From Pseudidiomarina sp. (GTDB lineage: Bacteria > Pseudomonadota > Gammaproteobacteria > Enterobacterales > Alteromonadaceae), in the NCBI GenBank assembly GCA_023260975.1, contig JALQTK010000012.1:1-44852 (forward strand): a DNA stretch of 44,852 nucleotides, read 5' to 3'. The notes beneath the pieces are model-generated. The model was given only the letters and a program-made list of their open reading frames with translations, was not told where the DNA came from and searched no databases. The position numbers and the translations under genes were made by a program. How positions within the stretch are numbered: position 1 is the first letter of the stretch; each line of letters starts with the position of its first letter. Below are positions 9,099 through 44,499 of the stretch, piece by piece.

Positions 9099-9671
9099 AT
9101 GCAGCAACAGGTTAAAAGCATTTTCACCGAGTGTATTCAGACCCAAATAGCGGCCGCCGACATGCTGCAAGATGCGCTGATGCAAGCCGCCGAATTGTTG
9201 GTGAGTACCTTATTGAATGGCAGCTCGGTGTTTTGCTGTGGTGAGCGCATGGCACACGCCTCGGCGCGCCATTTCGCCCATATCATGTTAACTGGCTTGG
9301 ATTTTGAGCGGCCACCCTTTGCGGTCACTGCATTACATGCGGATTTGGGCGCCCGTGAACATGAGTATACCTTTGCGCAGCAAATCTTACCGAGTGGCAA
9401 AGCTGGCGATTTGTTGATCGTGCTCAACGCCAGTGCCAGCGCACCGCGGGTTTGTCGAGCGATGGAGGCGGCACTATCACGCGGCATGCTGATTATTGCT
9501 TTGACCAGTGAAGCCGATCAGCAAGTGGCAGGCTTACTCGGTCCTGACGATGTCGAAATTCGTATCCCCTCACGCAATAGCGCCCGCGTTAGTGAGCTAT
9601 TGTTACAGCTAATGAACATGCTATGCCGGTTGAGCGAACAACAAATCTTTCCGCAGGAGATAGAGTCATGA
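9099..9671 (+). CDS. diaA: DiaA-like SIS-domain protein, DnaA initiator-associating factor
   Basis: DiaA is a tetrameric SIS-fold protein that binds DnaA and promotes its assembly at oriC. The 190-residue length, the N-terminal FTECIQTQIAAADML helix and the C-terminal LLGPDDVEIRIPS segment align well with E. coli DiaA, and it sits between yraN and dolP as expected. The SIS phosphosugar loops are not conserved: the usual CGNG-S-A loop reads CGERMAHA (47-54), and the usual STSGNS-type loop reads NASASAPR (110-117). Sugar-phosphate binding is therefore unlikely, while DnaA binding may persist. The stop overlaps the dolP start as ATGA. Confidence 0.88.
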   Translation: MQQQVKSIFTECIQTQIAAADMLQDALMQAAELLVSTLLNGSSVFCCGERMAHASARHFAHIMLTGLDFERPPFAVTALHADLGAREHEYTFAQQILPSGKAGDLLIVLNASASAPRVCRAMEAALSRGMLIIALTSEADQQVAGLLGPDDVEIRIPSRNSARVSELLLQLMNMLCRLSEQQIFPQEIES

Positions 9672-11307: not shown

Positions 11308-12054
11308 TTACTTCACGTCTTTAAAGAATTCGCGCTTCAACAACCACGCTAAAATCGTAAAGACCAACAGGAAACCAAAGCTATACCAGCCAATACGACG
11401 TTGCTGAAGCATCATCGGTTCGCCGGTGTAGACTAAGAAATTGGTCAGATCGTTCATTGCTGTATCGAACTCTTCGGTGGTAAGCATGCCGCTGCCGTCG
11501 GTTTTGATACCCACGTAAACGTCTTGCATTTCACCATCAATCATACGCGCTTCGTAAGTTTTACGCGGAACGCCCTGCAACTCTTGCAAGACATGCGGCA
11601 TACCCACATTTTCGAACACGGTGTTATTCACCCCAAATGGACGGCTTTCATCCACATAGAATGAACGGAAATAGGTATACAACCAATCCGCACCGCGTAC
11701 TCGCGCCACCAGCGTTAGATCTGGAGCAGCAGTACCGAACCACGCGTCAGCTTGTTTTGCTGACATGGTATTGGTAATCAAATCACCCGGTTTTTCGCCA
11801 GTAAATTGCAAGTTAGCGACGCCGATATCTTCTGGGATCTCAAGATCACGGAAGGTGCGGTTGTAACGCTGATACTGCATTTGGTGACAACCTAAGCAAT
11901 AGTTCATGAACAACTGTGCACCACGCTGCAATGACTCTTTGTCGTGCAAGTTCACATTGGCTTTGTCTAACGGCACGGTAGGGCCAGCAGCAAGCGTCGC
12001 TACTGACCATACTGATACGGCCGCCAACAGACAGGTTTTCAGTAATTTGTTCAT
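11308..12054 (-). CDS. petC: PetC, cytochrome c1 of the bc1 complex
   Basis: Cytochrome c1 is the periplasm-facing c-type haem subunit of complex III; it takes electrons from the Rieske protein and passes them to soluble cytochrome c. The protein has a signal peptide ending near TLAA, the haem attachment motif CLGCH at about 53-57, the axial Met in NVGMPHVL and a C-terminal membrane anchor near the end. The ATG at 12054 shares its first base with the petB stop (TGATG). A GTG at 12057 is an equally plausible start because AGAGG is better spaced for it. Confidence 0.96.
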   Translation of the reverse strand: MNKLLKTCLLAAVSVWSVATLAAGPTVPLDKANVNLHDKESLQRGAQLFMNYCLGCHQMQYQRYNRTFRDLEIPEDIGVANLQFTGEKPGDLITNTMSAKQADAWFGTAAPDLTLVARVRGADWLYTYFRSFYVDESRPFGVNNTVFENVGMPHVLQELQGVPRKTYEARMIDGEMQDVYVGIKTDGSGMLTTEEFDTAMNDLTNFLVYTGEPMMLQQRRIGWYSFGFLLVFTILAWLLKREFFKDVK

Positions 12055-13316
12055 CACTTGGTGATCCTCTCTGGAACTGGCTTAGTTTTCTCATGCTTAC
12101 TGTAGAACCACAGCAAGATAAAGAAGGCAAAGTACAGGAAGGTAAATATCCGCGCGAACAGCGTGTAAATTTCAGTCGCTGGTTTCACGCCCAAGTAACC
12201 TAGCACCACAAAGCTAATAGTGAATACCGCTAAGTTCACTTTATGAATGCTGCTGCGGTACCGAATTGAACGCACTTTACAGCGGTCAAGCCATGGTAAC
12301 AGGAACAGGAACACAATAGCGGCGAACATTAAAATAACGCCAAACAGTTTATCTGGCACGGCCCGCAAGATCGCGTAGAACGGCGTGAAATACCATACTG
12401 GCGCAATGTGAGCCGGAGTTTTCAACGGGTTGGCCGCTTCAAAGTTAGGTGGCTCTAAGAAGAAGCCGCCCATAGCTGGGGCAAAGAACAACACGTAGCA
12501 GAAGAATGCCAAGAAAATACCAATACCGACTAAATCTTTAACAATGTAGTACGGGTAAAACGGAATGGCATCGACAATGTCGTATTTCTTGGTGAAGCGC
12601 TCATGGAACTCGAACTTTGGTTTTTCTGCGTCTGGTACTGAACCCTTCGGCTTCTTAATTGAGATACCTTCTGGGTTGTTTGAGCCGACTTCGTGCAGCG
12701 CAATAATGTGCAAGAACACTAAAATCACCAGCACCAATGGCAAGGCAATAACGTGTAAGGCAAAGAAGCGGTTCAAGGTGGCACCGGAGATGACGTAGTC
12801 ACCGCGAATCCACAGGGTTAAATCATCACCGATGTAGGGAATCGCACCGAACAACGAAATAATAACCTGTGCACCCCAGTAGGACATCTGGCCCCATGGC
12901 AACAAATAGCCCATAAAGGCTTCAGCCATAAGCACCAAGAAGATCAGCATACCGAAGATCCAGAGTAATTCGCGAGGCTTCTGGTACGAGCCGTACATCA
13001 TGCCGCGGAACATAGGCAGGTACACCACCAAAAAGAACGCTGAGGCCCCGGTGGAGTGCATGTAGCGGATGAGCCAGCCCCAGTCCACGTCCCGCATGAT
13101 GTATTCGACCGAGGCAAAAGCACCCTCAGCAGTTGGCACATAGTTCATGGTTAACCAAACGCCAGTGACGATTTGGTTGACCAATACTAAGGTGGCGAGT
13201 ACGCCAAAAATGTACCAAAAATTAAAGTTTTTCGGCGCAGGATATTGCGCTAAGTGAATGTTCCAGGTTTTCGTGAGTGGAATACGCTCATCAAACCAAG
13301 CAATTAGCTTCTTCAT
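12054..13316 (-). CDS. petB: PetB, cytochrome b of the bc1 complex (haem-ligand His replaced by Pro)
   Basis: Cytochrome b is the membrane subunit of complex III that holds haems bL and bH and both quinone sites. The 420-residue protein is full length with the expected membrane helices. The Qo motif is PVWY (in HIAPVWYFTPFYAILR), a variant known in gamma- and betaproteobacteria. His87 of helix B and the helix D histidines (FALH... and VFLH) are present. The second helix B His, 14 residues after His87 in the family (YLHMFRG-type), is Pro101 here (YLPMFRG; codon CCT at 13016-13014, one base from CAT). By family knowledge this His ligates haem bH, so function should be impaired if the base is real. 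It starts by TAATG overlap with petA. Confidence 0.95.
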   Translation of the reverse strand: MKKLIAWFDERIPLTKTWNIHLAQYPAPKNFNFWYIFGVLATLVLVNQIVTGVWLTMNYVPTAEGAFASVEYIMRDVDWGWLIRYMHSTGASAFFLVVYLPMFRGMMYGSYQKPRELLWIFGMLIFLVLMAEAFMGYLLPWGQMSYWGAQVIISLFGAIPYIGDDLTLWIRGDYVISGATLNRFFALHVIALPLVLVILVFLHIIALHEVGSNNPEGISIKKPKGSVPDAEKPKFEFHERFTKKYDIVDAIPFYPYYIVKDLVGIGIFLAFFCYVLFFAPAMGGFFLEPPNFEAANPLKTPAHIAPVWYFTPFYAILRAVPDKLFGVILMFAAIVFLFLLPWLDRCKVRSIRYRSSIHKVNLAVFTISFVVLGYLGVKPATEIYTLFARIFTFLYFAFFILLWFYSKHEKTKPVPERITK

Positions 13317-13906
13317 TACGCTTGCTCCCCATCTTCACCAATGAGAATGACATCGTCATTGATAAAATAATGCGGTGGTACCACGAGGTTATAGGGTGCT
13401 GGTACGCCTTGGAATACACGGCCGGCAATATCAAAAGTAGAACCATGGCAAGGGCAGAAGAAACCACTTTCGGTACCTTCAACATACTCACCAAAGGTTT
13501 TATCTAAGAACTGCGGCGAACAACCGAGGTGAGTACAAATACCAACCGCAACAAAAAACTCTTGTTTGCGCGAACGGTGAATATTTTTAGCATACTCTGG
13601 TTGTTGTGGTTCATCTGAATTCGGGTCACGCAGTTTATCTGCCAGACCGTCCAACGATTTCAGCATCTCGGGCGTACGACGTACTACCCAAACTGGCTGT
13701 CCACGCCACTCTACCCGAACCAATTGACCTGGTTCGGCCTTTCCAATGTTCACTTCCACTGGGGCACCGGCGTTTTTTGCTTTTTCACTCGGATTCCACG
13801 ACGTTATGAAAGGAACGGCAACAGCCACCGCGCCCGCAGCTCCGACGACAGTTGTCGCGGCAGTCAGGAAACGACGGCGGCCATGATCTACAGGCGCATT
13901 GCTCAT
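13316..13906 (-). CDS. petA: PetA, Rieske iron-sulfur subunit of the bc1 complex
   Basis: The Rieske protein carries the 2Fe-2S cluster that oxidises quinol at the Qo site and shuttles electrons to cytochrome c1. From the ATG at 13906 (GGAG 9 nt upstream) it has 196 residues. A twin-arginine sequence GRRRFLTAATTV (9-20) and a hydrophobic stretch form the uncleaved Tat anchor. Cluster ligands are in CTHLGC (124-129) and CPCHGS (151-156), including the disulfide cysteines. It is first in petABC, behind its own promoter. Confidence 0.97.
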   Translation of the reverse strand: MSNAPVDHGRRRFLTAATTVVGAAGAVAVAVPFITSWNPSEKAKNAGAPVEVNIGKAEPGQLVRVEWRGQPVWVVRRTPEMLKSLDGLADKLRDPNSDEPQQPEYAKNIHRSRKQEFFVAVGICTHLGCSPQFLDKTFGEYVEGTESGFFCPCHGSTFDIAGRVFQGVPAPYNLVVPPHYFINDDVILIGEDGEQA

Positions 13907-13979
13907 CCACTTACTCTCCAGTTTGGATGTTTCACGACAGTTCATCGTGAAATCAGTGTAGGGAAAAATTTGCCCTTCG

Positions 13980-32911: not shown

Positions 32912-32931
32912 CTGGGGGTGTTACACCCCAG
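32912..32931. terminator. Hairpin between convergent mgtE and pmbA
   Basis: CTGGGG-GTGT and ACACCCCAG form a near-perfect stem with one bulged G, overlapping the pmbA stop codon. No U tract follows on either strand, so it is at best a weak terminator or a 3'-end stabiliser for both genes. Confidence 0.35.
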
Positions 32932-34267
32932 CCAAGCGCATTGAATCAATCCACACCGACCCGGTGCGCACACCATGACGCATATCGACATCGTTGCCGA
33001 TAGCCACCAGGTTGGCGAACATGTCTTTGAGATTACCCGCAATGGTGATTTCTTCGACCGGATATTGAATCTCCCCATGCTCTACCCAAAACCCGGCAGC
33101 ACCGCGCGAGTAATCACCAGTCAATAAATTAACCCCCTGCCCCATGAGTTCGGTCACTAATAATCCGGTACCCATATCACGACACATGCTCGCTAACGAA
33201 TCGGCATTATGGCCAACCTGCCAGGTATGAATACCGCCAGCATGTCCGGTAGGTGCCAGACCTAATTTCCGGGCCGAATAACTGGTCATCAAATAGGTCT
33301 GTAATACCCCATCGGCAATGATGTCACGCTCAACCGTAGCGACTCCCTCGTGGTCAAATGGACTGCTGGCCAGCGCCCCACGCAAATGCGGCAACTCACG
33401 AATAGTCAACCAGGCGGGCAACACCTGCTGGCCCAACTGATCGATTAAAAAGCTCGATTTGCGATACAAATTGCCGCCACTAATTGCTCCCACTAAATGA
33501 CCAAACAGCGAATTAGCCACATCGGCACGGAAAATAACCGGTACCTGTGCGGTGGCAATTTTGCGTGAATCAAGCCGCGCCAGCGTGGCGTCAGCAGCCT
33601 CTTCTGCCACCTGTTCTGGGCTCAGCAGGAGTTCACGCTTGCGCGCCACGGTGTAGCTGTAATCGCGCTGCATGGCATCACCACTTTTAGCAATCAACGA
33701 GCAACTTAAGCTATGCCGAGACTGTAGATAGCCGGCCAAAAAACCATGACTATTACCATACACGCGATAGCCCACATGGCTGCTATAACCAGCGCCATCC
33801 GAATTGACAATGCGTGGATCGAGCGCTAATGCATGGCGCTCACAAGCCAGTGCTTGGGCTAGCGCAAACTCAGCACTTTGGTCGGCTGGATGACATAAAT
33901 CAAGATCAGCAATGGTCTGTGCCATCGCCGCTGCAGGAGCCAAGCCAGCATATTCATCGGGCGAGGTATAGCGGGCAATATCATTAGCCTTTTCTACCGC
34001 CGCGCGAATCGCCGCAGCAGTTAAGTCAGTGGTCGACGATGAGCCCTTCTGCTGACCACGATACAAGGTAATACCGAGTGCGCCGTCTTGATTAAATTCA
34101 ACCGTTTCGACCTCTCCTAAGCGGGTGCCCACGTTAATACCGCGACTGCGGCTGATAGCGCACTCAACGGCACTGCTACCGAGCTTTTTGGCGTACGCTA
34201 ACGCGTCGGCAACGGCCTGTTCAACATCCTGCATTTCTTGGCGTAACTGCTGCATATCTGGGGTCAC
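32921..34267 (-). CDS. pmbA: PmbA (TldE), TldD/TldE protease subunit
   Basis: TldE pairs with TldD to form a metalloprotease that processes unfolded peptides such as microcin B17 precursor and CcdA in E. coli. The 448-residue protein has the U62-family pattern (SRGINVGTRLGEVETVEF near 40-58, SSFLIDQLGQQVLPAW, GTGLLVTELMGQGVNLLTGDYSRGAAGF) and lacks the HExxxH site, as expected for the non-catalytic partner. The GTG at 34267 has GGAG 6 nt upstream. Its partner tldD lies beyond darP, which is on the opposite strand. Confidence 0.95.
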   Translation of the reverse strand: MTPDMQQLRQEMQDVEQAVADALAYAKKLGSSAVECAISRSRGINVGTRLGEVETVEFNQDGALGITLYRGQQKGSSSTTDLTAAAIRAAVEKANDIARYTSPDEYAGLAPAAAMAQTIADLDLCHPADQSAEFALAQALACERHALALDPRIVNSDGAGYSSHVGYRVYGNSHGFLAGYLQSRHSLSCSLIAKSGDAMQRDYSYTVARKRELLLSPEQVAEEAADATLARLDSRKIATAQVPVIFRADVANSLFGHLVGAISGGNLYRKSSFLIDQLGQQVLPAWLTIRELPHLRGALASSPFDHEGVATVERDIIADGVLQTYLMTSYSARKLGLAPTGHAGGIHTWQVGHNADSLASMCRDMGTGLLVTELMGQGVNLLTGDYSRGAAGFWVEHGEIQYPVEEITIAGNLKDMFANLVAIGNDVDMRHGVRTGSVWIDSMRLAGV

Positions 34268-34911: not shown

Positions 34912-36347
34912 GCGGTGCCACCCACAGTCAGGGCATCGAGCTTCAGGGTCGGTTGACCCACCCCTACCGGGACGCTCTGACCATCTTTACCACACACGCC
35001 TACACCTGCATCCAAGGCTAAATCATTACCTACCATAGAGACTTGGCACATGGCTTCGGGGCCATTGCCAATCAGTGTGGCGCCTTTAATGGGTGCGGTA
35101 ATTTTACCATCTTCAATGAGATACGCTTCGGAGGCTGAGAACACGAACTTACCCGAGGTAATATCCACTTGGCCACCGGCAAACTGCGGCGCATAGATAC
35201 CTTTTTTTACGCTGCCAATAATATCCGCTGGATCATGCTCACCGGCGAGCATATAGGTATTGGTCATGCGCGGCATAGGTAATTGCGCGTATGACTCGCG
35301 CCGACCATTACCGGTCGCTGCAACACCCATCAAACGTGCATTCAGTTTATCTTGCATGTAACCGACCAAACGCCCCTTTTCGATCAACACGTTATAACCT
35401 GCGGGGGTGCCCTCGTCATCAACTGTGAGCGAGCCGCGGCGATCGGTGATGGTGCCATCATCGACAATAGTGCAGTGTTCTGAAGCGACCAGTTGGCCAA
35501 TTTTACCGGCATAAGCACTCGCGCCCTTACGGTTAAAATCGCCTTCTAAACCATGGCCCACCGCCTCATGCAGCAATACTCCCGGCCAACCAGCACCAAG
35601 TACTACCGGCATGGTACCAGCCGGTGCTGGACGCGCTTCCAGGTTAACCAGTGCTTGGCGAACCGCTTCTTTGGCGTACTGCTGCCAGCGTAAATCAGTT
35701 AAAAAATAGCCATAACCAACGCGCGCACCGCCGCCAGCATTGCCGCGCTCGCGTTTTCCATTGTGCTCAACCAGCACCGTGCAATTCAATCGCACCAATG
35801 GCCGAATATCTGCGGCCAGCACGCCATCGGTCGCGACCACCAGAATTTCATCGTAACTACCACTGATACTGGCAATCACTTCGACGACTCGCTTATCAAG
35901 ACTACGGGCGTAGGCATCCACTTCACGGAGCAAATCAATTTTCGCCGCTTCATCGAGACTCTGCAGCGGATTGAGCGCCTCATAGCGTGCTGTCGCAGTC
36001 GGCCGATGCCAAGCGTTTAGACGCCCATGCGCCCCAACTGCGGCGATACCACGAGCGGCAGCAGCGGCGTGTTGCAAGGCTTGCGGACTAATATCATCAG
36101 CATAGGCGAAACCGGTCTTGTCGCCATGAATAGCACGCACGCCTAGGCCGCTCTCAATATGAAAGCTACCGTCTTTGACAATACCATCTTCCAGTACCCA
36201 CGACTCATTGACACTGCTTTGCAAATAGATATCGGCAAAGTCAATTGAGCCGCTGTACAACTGTTGCATTGCTTGCTGTAACGCATCAACGCCTAACTGG
36301 TGTTGGCTCAAAAGATTATGGCTGACGTGCTCAAAGGCTGACTGCAT
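34908..36347 (-). CDS. tldD: TldD, metalloprotease subunit
   Basis: TldD is the zinc-bearing subunit of the TldD/TldE protease. The 479-residue protein has the catalytic HEAVGH (HExxxH; His260, Glu261, His265), followed by [20 protein letters not shown], and the C-terminal [20 protein letters not shown] block. No microcin gene is in the window, so a general peptide-processing role is likelier. It begins 2 nt after nit. Confidence 0.96.
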
Positions 36348-36349
36348 GA

Positions 36350-37201
36350 TTAAACTACCTGCTGTGTTTTAAATTGTGTAATTACCGGCATAGTGCGGCG
36401 AATATGCTGCTGTTGCTCAGCCGCAAACACGGCAGTGGCAAAGCTTGGGCTGGCTTGTTTAGCGTCAGCTTGCAGGTTACCCCAAGCGTCGACCACCAGC
36501 GCATGCCCATAGGTTTCTCGGCCATTGGCATGGCGTCCAACTTGCGCCGCTGCAACCACTGCAACTTGCTGCTCAATAGCGCGCGCTCTAGTTAATACGT
36601 GCCAATGCGCTGAACCGGTCACTTGGGTGAATGCCGACGGTAACACGACAATATCAGCAGCGGCTAAACGCAAGGCGCGGAAGAGCTCCGGAAAACGCAC
36701 ATCATAACATACCGCCATACCAATAGTGCCAATTTCAGTGGCCACAGTGACCACTTCAGTGCCGGCCATGGTGGCTGCCGATTCACAATAATTGCCGGTA
36801 GCATCGGCTACTTCAACATCAAATAAATTAATTTTGTTATACCGCGCAATACAGTCGCCCGCGGGGTTGTAGAGCAGACTCGCGGCACTAAAACGCGATT
36901 GTTGCGGATGATCAATAAGTGGAATGGTACCAGCTACTAGCCACACCCCAAAATCAGCAGCTAATGCCGCTAGGCCTTCTTGCATTGGCCCTTGCCCTGG
37001 CAGTTCCGCTAGGCGGCGCTGAGCGGCATCGCCAGCAGCAAAACACAAACAGGCCTCCGGTAAGACCACCAGCTGCGGGCGCTGCGCTGGTAACTGGCTA
37101 AACAATTCACGCAAAGTGGCTAAATTTGTTGCGGGGTCAGGGCTACTACTTCATTGCACCGCTGTCAGTTGCAGCGGCGGGCGGTTGTCGCTGTTGCTCA
37201 T
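36350..37201 (-). pseudogene. Nitrilase-superfamily amidase (Nit-like) interrupted by TGA at codon 17
   Basis: This carbon-nitrogen hydrolase is of the type found between yhdP and tldD in many gammaproteobacteria, related to omega-amidases and deaminated-glutathione amidases. The catalytic triad is intact: Glu49 (LPE), Lys123 (YNKINLF) and Cys165 (AVCYD), counted from an ATG at 37201-37199 that lies inside yhdP with AGGAG 7 nt upstream. That reading gives LQLTAVQ, then TGA (37153-37151), then SSSPDPATNLATLREL, the family's normal N-terminus with one codon turned to stop. The only later usual initiator nearby is a TTG at 37114, which would lose the first core beta strand. It may be a pseudogene, a sequence error or a read-through case. 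Confidence 0.85.
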
Positions 37202-43133: not shown

Positions 43134-43616
43134 CTAGCGAATTGCGTAAGTTTGGCGGTATTTGCGCAATAACAAATACACCCATGGCCAAGCCAACATG
43201 GAGGTAATCACCGGATATAAATACGGCAGATTAAATACCGCATCATTCAACACATGCTCGAGCTGATAGACAATCATTCGTTTGGCTAGCACTAACAAAC
43301 CAACAAAAACCGTTAGCTGCAGCATTGATTGATTGCGCAAACGCTGAAAATGGCGCAATACCGGGTAGGCCACTGCCACTAAGGCAATGGTATAAATACC
43401 AAAACCTGAGCCCATCAATATATCGGTTAATAACCCCAGCATAAGCACGGTAACAAAGCCTACTCGGTGCGGTATAGCCATCAACCAATAAATTAACAGC
43501 AAACTGATCCAATCGGGCCGCCAGACTTCGAGCACTGATGGCAGCGGCAGCACCATTAATACTAAAGCCGCCAAATAACTTAACAACAACGGTACTAAGC
43601 CAGATTTAATCCACAT
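43134..43616 (-). CDS. mreD: MreD, rod-shape membrane protein
   Basis: MreD is an integral inner-membrane protein of the elongasome, working with MreC, MreB, RodA and PBP2. The 160-residue protein, from the ATG at 43616, has about five hydrophobic helices, with the RPDWISLLLIYW and LTDILMGSGFG motifs. E. coli MreD is 162 residues. An in-frame extension to 43784 lies wholly in mreC and was rejected. It overlaps mreC by 11 nt. Confidence 0.95.
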   Translation of the reverse strand: MWIKSGLVPLLLSYLAALVLMVLPLPSVLEVWRPDWISLLLIYWLMAIPHRVGFVTVLMLGLLTDILMGSGFGIYTIALVAVAYPVLRHFQRLRNQSMLQLTVFVGLLVLAKRMIVYQLEHVLNDAVFNLPYLYPVITSMLAWPWVYLLLRKYRQTYAIR

Positions 43617-44499
43617 AGTTGACCTCCGGCCGTTGCGCTGCATCATCATTGGCACGGCCAAAAACCGGTTGCTCATCAACATGACCTGGCCACAGCAACA
43701 ATAAACTACGCACCCGATCGAGCTGGGCATAGGGCCGCACGGCGACTTGGGCATATTGAAATTGCTCGTTGCGGTCAATTTCAATCACTTCGGCAACCGG
43801 GTAGCCTTCTGGGAATACTTCGTCAAGACCAGACGACAACAGCACATCGCCTACTTCAATATCGCTACTATGGGAAATGTAAAGCAGCGCTAATTTCTGT
43901 AAATCACCGGTGCCCTGCGCTAGTACGCGAATATCGTTGCGCTGTACCCGCAATGAAATGGCATGACTTTGATCAGAAATCAGTAATACCCGTGCGGTAT
44001 TCAAGCCGACACTGACCAGTTGTCCGACAATACCGCGATTATCTAATACCGGCTGACCAACATAGGCACCATTACTCGAACCTTTGTTGATCACCACTTG
44101 GTGTGAAAATGGATCGGAGGCCACCGCCACCACTTCGGTCACCATGCGGCGGGAAGCACCGCGCACATCGGAACCAAGTAACTGGCGTAAGCGGTCATTT
44201 TCACTTTCAATAAAATTCAGCCGTTGCGCCGCCATTTCTAGCTCCAGCAACGGATTTCCTAAGCGCTCATTGTCTTTACGTACTTCACTACGAGTGGTCA
44301 AACTATAATCAATGCGAGCAGAGATTTGCTGGGGTAACACCGCCAAATATTGAATAGGGGAAACTACAGTGGATAAAAACGAACGCACCGGCTGCATGGT
44401 ATTCAGCCGGTGGTCTAAAAAAAGCAGTAAGCTGGCGCAACCCAGCGCAATGAAAAAGCGTGTGCGTAGCGACGGCCCGCGTTCAAACAGCGACTTCAT
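43606..44499 (-). CDS. mreC: MreC, rod-shape periplasmic scaffold protein
   Basis: MreC is a bitopic protein that activates the RodA-PBP2 elongation synthase. The 297-residue protein has a membrane segment at about 14-31, a coiled coil (about 65-105, ending NDRLRQLLG) and the beta-rich domain with VINKGSSNGAYVGQPVLDNRGIVG. It lacks the long proline-rich C-terminal extension of some relatives. It begins 8 nt after mreB. Confidence 0.95.
   Translation of the reverse strand: MKSLFERGPSLRTRFFIALGCASLLLFLDHRLNTMQPVRSFLSTVVSPIQYLAVLPQQISARIDYSLTTRSEVRKDNERLGNPLLELEMAAQRLNFIESENDRLRQLLGSDVRGASRRMVTEVVAVASDPFSHQVVINKGSSNGAYVGQPVLDNRGIVGQLVSVGLNTARVLLISDQSHAISLRVQRNDIRVLAQGTGDLQKLALLYISHSSDIEVGDVLLSSGLDEVFPEGYPVAEVIEIDRNEQFQYAQVAVRPYAQLDRVRSLLLLWPGHVDEQPVFGRANDDAAQRPEVNYVD

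Follow-up and report, generated by a model that had tools for sequence, protein, structure and literature searches.

In the cytochrome b of the Rhodobacter capsulatus bc1 complex, His212 is assigned to haem bH; the excerpt cited here terms the single replacement H212N a 'heme bH knock-out' and describes its revertant H212K as active, with a working haem bH in His-Lys ligation (PMC4807273). The gene considered in this study, petB, was found in a window of 44,852 nucleotides (the whole stretch of DNA that was analysed) from a draft genome of Pseudidiomarina sp., and as sequenced it encodes proline at position 101, where a haem bH ligand is expected. Pro101 was attributed, with moderate confidence, to a local chimera or a consensus error and is most likely absent from the living organism.

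The petB locus and its haem ligands

petB, the gene for cytochrome b of the bc1 complex (12054-13316, minus strand), was an open frame of 420 amino acids with matches to PF00033, PF00032 and PF13631 above the cut-offs; the N- and C-terminal cytochrome b domains (PF00033 and PF00032) were thus present in one chain. It was flanked by open frames for the Rieske iron-sulphur protein (petA, 13316-13945, minus strand; PF00355) and for cytochrome c1 (petC, 11308-12057, minus strand; PF02167), as in a co-encoded bc1 complex. The motifs CTHLGC and CPCHGS were present in petA and CLGCH in petC, which we take to be the Rieske and haem c motifs, respectively. Elsewhere in the window, neighbouring open frames with homologues in relatives overlapped by about 49 nt (9623-9671) and about 179 nt (43606-43784), and their start sites may have been wrongly set. 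A petB-like stretch (42% identity over 84% of the query) was also observed at 35732-36760 of PQ159902.1, at the very end of a record named Helicobacter phage, and is probably host DNA at the record edge.

Codon 101 was CCT (13014-13016, minus strand; AGG on the plus strand), where relatives encode histidine, and His87 stood 14 residues earlier, both as described in the sequence-only reading of this DNA. In the phmmer alignments, Pro101 fell opposite a histidine in two solved cytochrome b chains, 8smr_I, presumably from Pseudomonas, and 1zrt_C. In 1zrt_C this histidine was residue 111 (counted by hand), which we take to pair with His212 as a ligand of haem bH. The earlier placement of Pro101 at a haem bH ligand was sound, and so was its expectation that the bc1 complex would fail to hold haem bH normally. 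The three other ligand positions (87, 188 and 203) were histidine in 111 of 111 aligned rows, the own gene included. The haem bL pair, His87 and His188, was thus complete, and in the haem bH pair position 203 was histidine and position 101 was proline as sequenced. The helix D ligands, 188 and 203, were 15 residues apart here and in 8smr_I, and a one-residue gap in 1zrt_C gave a distance of 14. A helix D spacing of 14 or 15 is a known difference among these proteins.

Histidine at position 101 was found in all 109 other petB loci of a first set (111 rows minus two copies of the own gene), which comprised 80 loci kept from at least 592 candidate contig loci plus those of an earlier search. After 44 more had been added, the count was 153 of 153 other loci, all fetched by similarity, so that some may be one species twice. 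At codon 101, the 25 close relatives whose codons were read carried CAT (13) or CAC (12), and none carried a proline codon. Moreover, a degenerate pattern left open at codon 101 matched 167 of 274 class genomes, and every match listed except the own gene, as read by eye, had CAT or CAC. The nearest relatives by petB were G014 (96%) and G001 (95%), and the named petB genes of Idiomarina xiamenensis and Pseudidiomarina salinarum stood at 86%, which probably places the source genome in their group. Against G014, 115 codons differed silently and 16 differed in the amino acid, which supports the earlier view that long-term decay is unlikely.

A bc1 complex that still works through an unusual arrangement at haem bH, in which His203 would pair with another residue or with water, was considered very improbable. 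H212K speaks for such an arrangement, since its working haem bH implies that bis-His ligation is not absolutely required. However, proline has no iron-binding side chain and would probably distort helix B, the proline was shared by none of the 153 other petB loci, and the residues unique to this petB against 27 genus-level relatives (W79, I83, L96, P101 and S356) included no new Lys, Met or His. The description of H212N as a knock-out in the cited excerpt also weighs against it. If real, Pro101 would be a natural exception to the bis-His ligation of haem bH, at a position where all 153 other petB loci have the ligand.

A foreign-looking tract beside codon 101

The surroundings of Pro101 had been read as fully conserved, which the comparison contradicted: W79, I83, L96 and P101 were absent from all 27 genus-level relatives compared, and codons 76-91 resembled those of another family. 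An exact match of 50 nt (13042-13091, minus strand; codon 76 to the second base of codon 92) to the petB of G265, a high-GC gammaproteobacterium of another family, carried W79 and I83 and ended 25 nt from codon 101. This match to L143, the petB locus of G265, was the longest exact run among the 153 petB loci, and the best genus member reached 41 nt. The identity of petB to L143 was 67% at codons 106-299 and 93% at codons 74-96. Across the broader stretch of codons 74-111, the difference was modest, with 89% identity to L143 versus 83-85% to three genus members. The tract resembled a distant organism more than the genus, and its flanks resembled the genus more, as expected of a local chimera. 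When 13003-13110 was searched against 369 class genomes, the best matches listed after the own sequence were G265 (92%) and G142 (91%), of another family, and no other genome of the own genus was among the matches listed.

Several features of the tract were less telling. The DNA identity of codons 76-90 was 78% to both G014 and G001, which were 89% identical to each other there; this value is weak alone because other petB blocks also dropped to 76-78%. The GC content was 0.62 at codons 74-100, 0.48 for petB overall and 0.625 for the petB of G265, and it added little to the case for a mosaic because the same codons of G014 also reached 0.58. Part of the 50-nt tract (about CACTCCACCGG) was common in the genus, so that the truly foreign portion may amount to about 36-48 nt. 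After codon 91, the codons were genus-like again except for 96 and 101. Codon 96 (13029-13031, minus strand) was TTG for leucine, and the genus genomes had valine (24/25) or isoleucine (1/25).

Four of the five unique residues lay within 23 positions (79-101), with a uniform-site chance of 0.002 in a test chosen after the data had been seen. Similarly, six of the 16 residues differing from G014 (77, 79, 82, 83, 96 and 101) fell within 25 residues, for which the permutation chance was 0.010 when all sites were used and 0.037 when the test was restricted to genus-variable sites. In terms of unique residues per 20 invariant sites, petB had 3, the contig genes at 466-1968 and 32921-34267 had 4 each, and four genes of G014 equalled the value of petB. 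Hence, the clustering alone was not decisive. In the two contig genes, the four residues seen only in the window lay at residues 144-173 (466-1968) and 209-241 (32921-34267), each set falling within 20 sites that are invariant in the others; these clusters may be additional short mosaic tracts or reflect natural change.

No donor with proline at codon 101 was found, and the best two candidates, G265 and G142, both had CAC for histidine; these two were the only members of the genus of G142 among the matches listed. Since the donor-like sequences have histidine, the proline does not come from the tract itself, and even in a chimera the proline base would be a separate miscall or mutation.

Genome quality, respiration and the origin of Pro101

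A local chimera or an unreliable consensus at this highly conserved stretch would explain the whole cluster of residues. In this view, the short, highly conserved helix B region would be a local composite, built from reads of poor quality or of more than one organism. The tract (codons ~75-91), unchanged in length, appears to derive from a gammaproteobacterium of high GC content, and the bases called at codons 96 and 101, shortly after it, would be doubtful. The anomaly would then have arisen during assembly rather than in nature, for example when a bubble flanked by two conserved k-mers was collapsed. Because Pro101 adjoins a seemingly copied stretch, an error of sequencing or assembly was regarded as likelier than a new respiratory enzyme. 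A counter-point to the chimera is that P101 and L96 lay outside the exact tract, in otherwise native-looking codons. If Pro101 is an artefact, it cautions that in draft assemblies striking active-site changes in conserved genes can sit next to short stretches of foreign appearance.

The source genome was a 1.9 Mb draft split into 186 contigs, with a completeness of 86.6%. Outside the petB contig, unique residues at invariant sites numbered 0/399 in Rho and 1/305 in an AtpA fragment, so the anomaly was not general in the genome. Generally poor sequence quality found no support in these two genes. Contig-wide, the window differed at 170/8393 sites that are otherwise invariant, and G014 at 98/8393; a second set gave 32/2572 in the window, 28/2572 in G001 and 7/2572 in G014. 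The excess may reflect branch length or errors. A single miscalled base at 13015, alongside genuine natural variation in the upstream tract, was considered very unlikely: CCT is one base from the CAT of relatives, and Rho and the AtpA fragment suggest a mostly accurate sequence for the conserved genes of this genome, but the unusual neighbouring codons make independent causes less economical.

The oxidases found were a cbb3 operon and a CtaD (aa3) fragment adjoining the CtaG and subunit III genes; the types and gene names were assumed from the sequence and its neighbours, and both types presumably use cytochrome c. The aa3-type oxidase subunit I at L132 (G000 contig 22, 2-433) was cut by the contig end. 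A bd oxidase (PF01654) was present in 21 of 26 genus genomes and was found neither in the source genome (86.6% complete) nor in its sister G014 (99% complete), and a quinol oxidase bypass of the bc1 complex was rejected on this basis. The search for AOX gave no match in the control genomes. G014, G017 and G023 each contained a third PF00115 match, a frame of 770-795 amino acids that, judging from its length, is probably a quinol NO reductase, and it was not found in the source genome. The proposed search for a second petB returned one PF00033 match, and rescue by a second cytochrome b was rejected within the limits of the 86.6% complete assembly. Since the genome is incomplete, an oxidase or a petB could have been missed. 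Given that the oxidases found use cytochrome c and include no bd type, strong selection against a dead bc1 complex is to be expected.

This dependence bears on a real and recent allele, in which a short petB tract was imported from another gammaproteobacterium and a point mutation, arriving with it or separately, removed the haem bH ligand. In that case haem bL may be retained, but electrons could not reach the Qi site, and such a strain would be a dead-end or low-frequency variant. Such an allele came second in likelihood, well behind the chimera or consensus error, and several observations fit it: the tract joins in frame with length kept, I83 and W79 are ordinary elsewhere (63/153 and 65/153 sequences, respectively), and petB is otherwise constrained in its codon differences from G014. 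Natural transformation is also reported to bring in fragments that are short and interrupted, which was counted for it (PMC2650093). This combination of import and mutation explains the cluster too, but it needs survival without a working bc1 complex, and an organism with the cytochrome c-dependent oxidases found would hardly grow. Furthermore, an import of 36-50 nt from DNA about 67% identical (codons 106-299) would be unusual. That a very short import of foreign petB gave rise to a running natural bc1 complex without the helix B ligand of haem bH, or to a living lineage abandoning the Q cycle, is highly unlikely. Of the three explanations offered by the sequence-only reading, sequencing or assembly error was favoured by the draft state of the genome, the foreign-looking tract and the failure to find a quinol oxidase that could rescue growth; a recent mutation and an unusual haem arrangement were left as less likely.

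Comparison with known systems

The protein was closest to proteobacterial bc1 cytochrome b, and the nearest solved chain, 8smr_I, was aligned over residues 1-419 of 420 with an E value of 3.1e-187. Three of the four haem ligands of this family were kept and the Rieske and cytochrome c1 genes were adjacent, whereas the fourth ligand was proline. As in H212N and H212K of Rhodobacter capsulatus, within what the cited excerpt describes, one of the two haem bH ligands was replaced (PMC4807273). However, those are laboratory mutants of the helix D ligand, whereas the replacement here concerns the helix B ligand and occurs in a draft genome sequence.
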